Part shown: positions 40,790 through 47,531 of the stretch, in pieces
Numbering within the stretch: the stretch's first letter is position 1
Layout of the letters: each line of letters begins with the position of its first letter
Assembly: GCF_019039255.1 (NCBI RefSeq)
Contig: NZ_CP077062.1
Coordinates: 744,001 to 808,000 of the forward strand
Direction: 5' to 3'
DNA length: 64,000 bases
From: Nocardioides panacis
GTDB lineage: Bacteria; Actinomycetota; Actinomycetes; Propionibacteriales; Nocardioidaceae
Made by a program: the position numbers and the translations under genes
Notes under the pieces: model-generated
Told to the model about the DNA's origin: nothing
The model's input: only the letters and a program-made list of their open reading frames with translations
Databases searched by the model: none

Positions 40790-45071
<4,282 letters not shown>

Positions 45072-45170
45072 GGCGGGTCTCCCTGAGGACGGTGTTCCCC
45101 CCCCGGCGTATCGAGCCAACGCCGGTGCCCCGGTCACGGTCAATGGGTCAGACGGGCCCGCCCGTCCGGG

Positions 45171-46202
45171 TCAGCGCGGTGGCGGGACGCCGTCGAGCAG
45201 CCGGGTCGCGGCCGGCAGGTCGTGCAGCGCGTCGGCCAGGGCGTCGCGCAGCGCCGTACCGGTGCCGGCGGGGGCGTCGCGGTTCCCGAGCACCAGCTCG
45301 CCCCAGGCCAGGGCGTCGGAGACGACACGCGGGTCGTCGCAGACCAGCGCCCCCGCCACGCTGCCGACCAGGTGCGGCAGCTGGTCGTCCAGTACCCGCC
45401 GCCAGCCGTGCGCGTGCCCCTCGGCCGGGTCGGCGTCGAGCGACCGCAGCACCCTGCGGGACACCTCGTCGGCGAGCGACTCCCGGGCGGCGAAGACGAC
45501 GAAGGCCTCCTCGGCGCCGTCGTGGGTCAGCGGCGGGGCCGGGGGTACGGCGGTCGGCAGCCCGGCCAGCGCCTCGGCGACGTCGGTGGCGCCGGTGGCG
45601 AAGGCCGTCGCGCCGAGGACCCGGGCCCGGTGACCGCCGGCGTCGAACGCCGAGCCGCCCACCACCACTGGGGTGCCGGTCTCGCGCACCGCCTCGATCT
45701 CCCGCCGGGTGAGCGGCAGGAACGAGGAGAGCGCACAGCTCAGCAGCACCGCGCTCGGGCCGGTGTCGTGGATGTGCCGGACCAGCCCCTGGGAGGAGGA
45801 GTTCGCGCCGAGGTAGCTGACCGCGAAGCCGCTCGCACGCAGCTGCTCGGTGATCATCAGGGCGGGCAACGCGTGCCACTCCTGCTCCACGCAGGACACC
45901 ACCACCGAGGGGGCGTCCTCCGGGGCCCGCGCCTGCTCCTCGCGCTCGACGGCCAGCGTGGTCAGCACCGCCTCGCTGATCGCGGTGGCCGCGTGCTCCT
46001 GCGCCACGCTCCAGCTGTCGGAGACCCACAGCTCGCCGACCCGCAGCTGGGCCGGGGCGATGAGCCGCAGGATCAGCTCCAGCAGCTCGTGCCCCTCGGC
46101 GCGCAGCGCCCGGGCCTGCTGCAGGGCGCCGGAGCGGTCGCCCCGGTTCAGCGCCGAGAGGTACTCCTCCACCTGCTGCCCCCAGGCGACCTCGGTGGTC
46201 AC
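45171..46202 (-). CDS. Cobalamin-binding sensor protein with CarH-type light-sensor motif
   Basis: 343 residues. An N-terminal four-helix module contains the Wx9EH pattern (W59, E69-H70 in ELWVSDSWSVAQEH), which in CarH caps the adenosyl group of B12. A Rossmann-like B12-binding domain follows, with the lower-ligand histidine in QEWHALPALMI (H110, D/ExHxx motif) and VVVGGSAF. No MerR DNA-binding domain is present. A C-terminal domain of about 120 residues is unrecognised. The GTG start overlaps the stop of the PP2C phosphatase gene by 4 nt, so the two are co-translated and probably one signalling unit. Light sensing is inferred from the motif. Confidence 0.82.
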   Translation of the reverse strand: MTTEVAWGQQVEEYLSALNRGDRSGALQQARALRAEGHELLELILRLIAPAQLRVGELWVSDSWSVAQEHAATAISEAVLTTLAVEREEQARAPEDAPSVVVSCVEQEWHALPALMITEQLRASGFAVSYLGANSSSQGLVRHIHDTGPSAVLLSCALSSFLPLTRREIEAVRETGTPVVVGGSAFDAGGHRARVLGATAFATGATDVAEALAGLPTAVPPAPPLTHDGAEEAFVVFAARESLADEVSRRVLRSLDADPAEGHAHGWRRVLDDQLPHLVGSVAGALVCDDPRVVSDALAWGELVLGNRDAPAGTGTALRDALADALHDLPAATRLLDGVPPPR

Positions 46203-47531
46203 CGCTCGCCGATCGACTGCACCGCGAGGATCGCGATGTCGTCGTGCGCCCGGTCGCGCAGGTGCGTGGACAGCGCGACCGCGACACTCTCGACCTGGGC
46301 GGTCACGTGGCAGGCACCGGTCGCCAGCAGCACCTCGCGCATCCTGTCGTCGCCGAACCGGGTGCGGTGGCCCGGGGCCTCGGCGACCCCGTCGGTGTAG
46401 AACAGGCAGGTCTCGCCCTCGGCGAGCTCGATGCTGACCGAGGTGTAGGTCGAGCTCGGGAGCAGGCCGAGCACCGTGCCGGACACCGGCACCTGCTCCA
46501 CCGACCCGTCGCGCCGCACGACGAGGGGCTCGGGGTGGCCGGCGGAGGCGATGTCGAGGTGCAGCACGTCGCCGACCTTGCGGCCCCGCGCGCACACGGC
46601 GGTCACGAACGTCTCGTCGGAGTCGGACACCAGGGTGCGGTTGGCCAGGTCGAGGACCCGGCTCGGGTCCCGGTCCACGAGCGAGGCGGTGCGCACGGCC
46701 TGGCGCACCTTGCCGGTGAGCACCGCCGCCTCGACGCCCTTGCCGCAGACGTCGCCCACCACGGCGGTCCAGCCGTCGTCGTCCCCGTGCACGTCGTAGA
46801 AGTCGCCGCCGAGGGCCTCCTGCTCGTAGGCCACCCGGTAGTAGGTGCCGAACGCGACACCTGCGAGGTCGGGCAGGCTCGGCGGCACGAGCTCGCGGGA
46901 CAGCACGGTGGCGACGCGGCGCGACTCGGCCAGCGCCCGGGTGGTGTCCAGCGTGACCGCGACCCGGTGGGCGAAGTCCTCGAGGAACGCGACGGCCCGC
47001 TCGTCGAAGCCGTTGCCGCAGCGCTGGGCGATCGTCAGGGCGCCGTACGTCGTCCCGCGGGCCGACATCGCGATGGTCAGCAGATCCATCGGCCGGATCG
47101 ACGTGAGCGACCCGCGCAGCGTCTCGGAGGGCACCGCGGAGGCCAGCGTGGCGCTGTCGGTGTCGCCGCCGTCGGGGACCATCAGGAGGTCGGTGGCGCC
47201 GGTGAACAGCGCCCGTCCCAGGCTGGAGGACTCCGGCACGTCCTCGACCGGGAGCCGGCCGGTGAGCAGCCGGCCGTCCGGGCCGCGGGAGCGGAACCGG
47301 AGCTGGCTGCGGTCGACCAGGGTGATCTGCGCCCAGTCGACGACCGGGCCGACCAGCATCTCCAGCACCAGGTCGACGGCGCGGTCGGTGTGCAGGGCGC
47401 CGGACAGCCCCCGGGCCACCCGGGCGAGGTACGCCGCCCGGTCGGCGGCCTGCTGCAGCTGCTCCTGGACACGGGCGCCCTCGGCAGGGGCCAGCAGGCA
47501 CGGCTGCGTGCCGGGGGGAGCCGTCGCTCAC
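46199..47531 (-). CDS. GAF-PP2C (RsbU/SpoIIE-like) protein phosphatase (frameshifted as written)
   Basis: About 443 residues after repair. A short coiled helix ([20 protein letters not shown]) leads into a GAF-like domain (about 50-200). A PP2C_SIG domain follows: [41 protein letters not shown] and [10 protein letters not shown] are all present. The original start is GTG at 47531 with GGAAAGGA upstream. The frame is lost in six Gs at 47513-47518, and one fewer gives [20 protein letters not shown], which joins the rest. Such phosphatases act on anti-anti-sigma factors in stress partner switching; no such partner is in the window. It is coupled to the B12 sensor gene. Confidence 0.88.

Follow-up and report, generated by a model that had tools for sequence, protein, structure and literature searches.

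A photocobilin gene overlapping a GAF-SpoIIE phosphatase gene in Nocardioides panacis, a candidate light-responsive pair

The window, a stretch of 64,000 nucleotides from Nocardioides panacis, encodes a 343-residue B12-binding protein that is, on sequence and predicted fold, a full-length photocobilin, a member of a recently described family (Zhang 2024, PMC10979010). This identity is secure, and the function of its pairing with the overlapping phosphatase gene is what we infer here. Many relatives keep the arrangement with the phosphatase, a hint that a stress response may be under the control of light.

A photocobilin and its overlapping phosphatase

On the minus strand, the photocobilin coding part runs from its GTG at 46202 to 45174, with the stop codon extending to 45171. 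In a HMMER sequence search of solved structures, SasPcob (8j2w, 8j2x) gave the best matches, with E about 1.5e-44 over residues 12–337, and AbDPcob (8j2y) matched with E 6.9e-36; CarH lay far behind, with a best E of 2.6e-10 limited to residues 15–212. The alignment reaches residue 337 of 343 and takes in the globin that marks a photocobilin. The structure model, built from 42 sequences (mean pLDDT 94.9), predicts helices at 229–238, 240–254, 266–288, 292–306, 314–325 and 330–337 in this part, and Foldseek ranked 8j2w, 8j2y and 8j2x first (TM about 0.8), with MerR-type and CarH domains next, over about 200–230 columns. Since both sequence and fold match the solved photocobilins, we assign the C-terminal 120 residues, which the original prediction had left unassigned, to the known five-helix photoglobin (biliverdin) domain.

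Table 1 Features of the gene pair in window coordinates.
Feature	Coordinates	Strand	Basis
Photocobilin gene, 343 aa, GTG start	45171..46202	minus	full-length match to SasPcob/AbDPcob (8j2w, 8j2x, 8j2y)
N-terminal helical bundle, B12-binding_2, residues 1-90	45933..46202	minus	PF02607 at 12-83; four model helices
Rossmann B12-binding domain	45567..45908	minus	PF02310
C-terminal photoglobin domain, residues 229-337	45192..45518	minus	model helices; SasPcob globin alignment
W59-x9-E69-H70 adenosyl-pocket signature	45993..46028	minus	aligned to SasPcob W61/E71/H72
H110, lower axial ligand place (SasPcob H108)	45873..45875	minus	alignment
Q274 at place of SasPcob biliverdin-binding Asp270	45381..45383	minus	multiple alignment
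W300, equivalent to SasPcob W296	45303..45305	minus	alignment
GAF-SpoIIE (PP2C) phosphatase gene, 406 aa or more	46199..47419	minus	Pfam and frame; true start probably further upstream
SpoIIE/PP2C catalytic domain	46217..46783	minus	Pfam and aligned relatives
GAF-like part	46949..47185	minus	PF01590 8.5e-05
GTGA overlap, phosphatase stop/photocobilin start	46199..46202	minus	4 bases, phosphatase TGA and photocobilin GTG
GTG behind GGAAAGGA ribosome-site-like stretch	47529..47531	minus	frame differs from phosphatase

Pfam placed B12-binding_2 at residues 12–83 (1.3e-11) and B12-binding at 99–212 (2.9e-16), and returned no DNA-binding family up to E 1. A MerR-type DNA-binding domain is defining for CarH/LitR; as Pfam detected none and the model begins with the B12 helical bundle, we rejected membership of that family. 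The CarH-type sensor domain of the original prediction is thus borne out in its B12 domain with the Wx9EH pattern, and the protein as a whole is instead a photocobilin matching SasPcob and AbDPcob over its full length. The residues named there (W59, E69-H70 and H110) were confirmed at their positions, as was the lack of a DNA-binding domain.

The predicted overlap of the GTG with the stop codon of a GAF-PP2C gene was also found, as GTGA at 46202–46199. The neighbouring protein matches SpoIIE (PF07228) at 8.2e-39 and GAF weakly (8.5e-05), PF01590 being detected in 21 of 34 aligned phosphatase members. D206, D223, D343, D393 and D394 of the catalytic domain, which we take to be the PP2C metal ligands, are invariant in 34/34. 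The top PDB match, in sequence and in structure, is Rv1364c (PDB 3KE6). The outer limit of 47531 originally given for the pair needs correction: the GTG there, with a good ribosome-site-like stretch ahead of it, shares its reading frame with the B12 protein and not with the phosphatase, and this coordinate is therefore unsure. The phosphatase frame is open to 47527, with its first ATG, GTG or TTG at 47419. Upstream of 47419 it encodes residues resembling the N-termini of the phosphatases in two near relatives (L038, L039), with a C homopolymer between, and the true start probably lies there.

Just downstream of the photocobilin, on the same strand, is a FAD_binding_4/BBE oxidoreductase gene (43641–45143), whose protein gave an empty PHROGs search, and then ligA on the other strand; by eye, the pair stands back to back with a gatC-like gene. 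Promoter and terminator scans gave no match, and none was expected. At L038, a 734-aa opposite-strand gene, probably ligA, occupies the place of the FAD oxidoreductase, and ligase domains occur in 2 of 56 downstream neighbours.

Linkage among relatives

The class-wide sample comprised 394 genomes, 62 of which had a photocobilin match at E 1e-20, at 69 places including the window's. Sixty-six of the 68 other places were examined with their flanks, the remaining two being tandem second copies inside those stretches; with three further loci, the set came to 69 loci besides the window. With PP2C called by tblastn at E 1e-6, a PP2C gene lies directly upstream on the same strand in 57/69 loci, so that the two genes co-occur, across the sampled class and the added loci, as the original prediction had proposed to survey. 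Loci without an upstream PP2C are L037, L040, L050, L084, L094, L098–L103 and L105, of which L037 and L100 begin at a contig end. When starts were chosen nearest to the window's, the pair overlaps by four bases, as in the window, in 32 of the 57 pairs and is spaced within 30 bases in 47. The near relatives L037–L039 (53–67% identity) keep W, EH and H, and PP2C is present in L038 and L039; in L040, whose photocobilin is 45% identical to the window's, PP2C was not found. The earlier suggestion of a light- or B12-responsive switch acting on the phosphatase and not on DNA fits these sequence data and gains from the linkage across the sampled class, although the sensor is a photocobilin and not simply of CarH type.

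The linked phosphatases appear to be a dedicated set. Their catalytic domains (57 plus the window's) form a single clade (support 0.77) without the 19 other SpoIIE domains of the window genome, which were the only paralogues in the tree. Among the window genome's 20 SpoIIE domains, 56/57 linked PP2Cs match the window's linked one best, a result favoured by the use of the window PP2C as the query that found them. Conversely, when the window PP2C was searched against the 51 genomes with the pair, its top match was the linked gene in all but two, G095 and G141 (49 of 51, manual count, among the best 30 candidates per genome at most). In the 10 genomes with a photocobilin lacking PP2C, no match to the window PP2C is better than 2e-41; the weakest linked genes do not surpass this value (G071, 5e-38). 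One SpoIIE domain of the window genome is split into two matches in different frames (G000:C1:3718357-3718906).

Outside the class, PP2C was seen in 0/14 photocobilin loci (11 genomes; flanks up to 1.5 kb, some contig-cut), so photocobilins in general are not tied to a PP2C output.

A STAS gene lies directly downstream of the photocobilin in 29/57 linked loci and 0/12 unlinked loci, which makes the order phosphatase-photoreceptor-antagonist a common one; 28/57 linked loci have no directly downstream STAS. In agreement, a simple gene finder called 112 downstream neighbours, and among the 56 of them scanned with Pfam, STAS was identified in 16. Partner switching would, though not strictly, place a STAS antagonist and an anti-sigma kinase beside the phosphatase, and the 15-kb stretch around the window pair (L106) has no match to STAS or HATPase_c_2. 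The target of the window pair is not encoded next to it. The window genome has 20 STAS and 35 HATPase_c_2 matches, and its STAS protein closest to the pair-linked ones is L136 (74 bits; the next about 60), a lead too small to single out a target.

Several loci differ in composition. L052 and L064 carry a tandem photocobilin pair behind a single PP2C. The L040 photocobilin adjoins apparent gatCAB genes (by eye), as the window's does. At L102, an unlinked family member, two genes, a separate GGDEF gene and one for GGDEF-EAL, immediately precede the photocobilin (L102:4953-8588), an unfused counterpart of AbDPcob with its fused cyclase. In L050 and L084, the photocobilin stands behind a gene for a zinc alcohol dehydrogenase, and in L050 behind a metallo-beta-lactamase-fold gene as well.

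Cobalamin pocket, bilin site and cofactor supply

Across the window photocobilin and 71 aligned relatives, the W, EH and H residues are intact together in 69/72 sequences. The window protein carries the W-EH motif and, as E108-W-H110, the E/DxH lower-ligand motif. The signature is broken in L084, L094 and L104; in L084 and L094 it is the EH or H residues that are broken, and these two are perhaps a derived non-light group.

The bilin site is less uniform. The family is characterised by AdoCbl together with biliverdin as chromophores and by green- and red-light responses. SasPcob binds biliverdin in its globin, and its W296 contacts both bilin ring D and the corrin (PMC10979010). Asp is found at the place of SasPcob D270 in 50/72 sequences and absent in 22/72, the window protein having Q274, and His at the place of H137 in 48/72, the window protein having G139. 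For Q274, the multiple alignment and the HMMER pair alignment with AbDPcob agree; the HMMER pair alignment with SasPcob opened a gap and set a neighbouring Asp opposite D270, a one-residue shift that was not followed. The window photocobilin thus lacks the bilin-binding Asp, which makes red sensing by it doubtful. This residue is not strictly defining of photocobilins, because 22/72 lack it and AbDPcob, with His in its place, still answers red light (PMC10979010).

SignatureFinder describes the light-responsive signature as GxxW, EH, GxxH and GxxxP (PMC11796333). GxxW and EH are present in the window protein, and the signature is incomplete in the other two elements, with Q107 in place of Gly in GxxH and S136 in place of Pro in GxxxP (SasPcob G105 and P134). 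This Gly and this Pro are kept in 47/72 and 57/72 sequences, respectively, window included. With two of the four elements changed, the published filter would probably miss the window photocobilin.

The window genome has six PF02310 matches, the window's included, and encodes a cob(I)alamin adenosyltransferase; given these other B12-binding proteins and the enzyme, AdoCbl is probably made and used. By eye, L001 resembles a corrinoid protein, L002 a mutase subunit and L006 an aminomutase, and no CarH was recognised among the PF02310 matches (L004 left out). A B12-binding/HATPase neighbourhood, L123, was considered as a second sensor and rejected, as by eye the protein is mutase-like and the ATPase lies one gene further.

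Heme oxygenase PF01126 and phytochrome PHY were not found in the window genome, which has one heme-oxygenase-like PF14518 match. Over the 62 photocobilin genomes, heme oxygenase does not track the bilin Asp (PF01126 in 27/48 with D270 and 6/14 without, p 0.54), and that idea was rejected. PF01126 is present in 33/62 photocobilin genomes vs 126/332 others (p 0.03), an excess to which we give no weight because relatedness was ignored and weak matches (G169, G196) were counted. We tentatively raise, while leaning against it, the idea that in the window lineage the photocobilin gave up bilin sensing and became a B12-only green-light partner switch, with the globin as a cap or docking part for PP2C. 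Q274 and G139 at bilin-contact places and the lack of PF01126 and PHY matches support it; the missing association between D270 and PF01126, the PF14518 match and the red-light answer of AbDPcob without the Asp oppose it.

Possible signalling route and known systems

The reading we favour, and hold to be fairly probable, is that the photocobilin, altered by light through its adenosylcobalamin, adjusts the phosphatase and thereby acts, via a STAS antagonist, on a sigma factor. Co-translation would yield the two proteins as sensor and output. In the dark, the photocobilin would hold adenosylcobalamin against W59 and E69-H70 as a head-to-tail dimer, a state predicted for the window protein. Under green light the Co-C bond would break, the adenosyl group would leave and the dimer would fall apart into monomers, by analogy with SasPcob, whose AdoCbl-bound dimer becomes a monomer in light (Zhang 2024, PMC10979010). 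The changed photocobilin may then contact the phosphatase directly and alter its activity, as a diguanylate cyclase domain is altered in trans by SasPcob and AbPcob, and the phosphatase would dephosphorylate a STAS anti-sigma antagonist, freeing the sigma factor. A neighbouring PP2C is a plausible recipient because SasPcob monomerises in light and stand-alone photocobilins change the cyclase domain of another protein in trans; the sign of the SasPcob effect is reversed with biliverdin (PMC10979010). B12 binding and light response by the window protein, phosphatase contact, effect sign and target are all points that we infer.

The photocobilin might instead report AdoCbl availability (apo vs holo), the phosphatase then answering B12 status and not light. 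AdoCbl binding in the dark did lower AbDPcob cyclase activity relative to apo (PMC10979010), and the genome has an adenosyltransferase and other B12-binding proteins, mutase-like and corrinoid-protein-like by eye. We nevertheless consider this unlikely, as the change of more than 10-fold in AbDPcob came from illumination (PMC10979010) and the adenosyl-pocket W and EH are kept in 69/72 sequences. It is similarly improbable that the STAS protein is the photocobilin's point of action, or that the photocobilin scaffolds phosphatase and STAS substrate, with phosphatase activity itself unchanged. The PP2C-photocobilin-STAS order at 29/57 linked loci would suit such a role, as would the homology of the RsbR non-heme globin domain to photoglobins, for which it served as outgroup (PMC10151467); yet 28/57 linked loci and the window have no directly downstream STAS, whereas the phosphatase is upstream in 57/69.

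Least probable, in our view, is that the two genes share no more than their expression, the window photocobilin no longer signalling light. The exchange of SasPcob D270, H137, G105 and P134 for Q274, G139, Q107 and S136 points that way, as do the broken signatures of L084, L094 and L104, but W59, E69, H70, H110 and W300 are intact in the window protein, and L037–L039 keep W, EH and H, with PP2C also in L038 and L039.

Light-driven tuning of the phosphatase would have a bearing on stand-alone photocobilins, whose function has been called less clear (PMC10979010): the phosphatase, with its overlapping and co-inherited gene, offers a definite partner open to testing, and the STAS genes next to half of the pairs point to the pathway. 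Should this hold, bacterial stress sigma factors would receive light input through B12 as well as through flavin, as with YtvA (PMC4844311). STAS, SpoIIE and PP2C partners of SasPcob were already proposed from a STRING network in the main text of Zhang 2024 (PMC10979010). Searches of the open-licence literature for a link between cobalamin photoreceptors and PP2C, SpoIIE/STAS or RsbU turned up this paper, a flavin-photoreceptor review and an unrelated one. As far as we have seen, what is new is how widespread and how tight the linkage is, together with the phosphatase clade, the directly counted STAS third gene, the lack of linkage outside the class in our sample and this lineage's altered bilin site; the linkage itself may stand in the supplementary neighbourhood figures of that paper.

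Among known systems, SasPcob (Saccharothrix syringae, 8J2W/8J2X) shares with the window protein its full-length domains, W/EH/H, W296, stand-alone form and predicted STAS/SpoIIE/PP2C partners; the window protein differs in having Q where SasPcob has the bilin Asp270 and G where it has His137, and its phosphatase overlap is visible in the DNA, whereas the SasPcob partners come from the STRING network. AbDPcob (8J2Y) has the photocobilin fold and a replaced bilin Asp (His), but its GGDEF cyclase output is fused in one chain, in contrast to the separate PP2C of the window. CarH/LitR resembles the window protein in its B12 domain with Wx9EH and lower-ligand His, over residues 15–212 only; CarH is a DNA-binding repressor, whereas the window protein lacks a DNA-binding domain and includes a globin. 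The RsbU/SpoIIE phosphatases and Rv1364c (3KE6) share the PP2C domain with the window phosphatase; 3KE6 joins RsbU and RsbW domains in one chain, whereas the window phosphatase consists of GAF and PP2C only and has a photocobilin as its partner.
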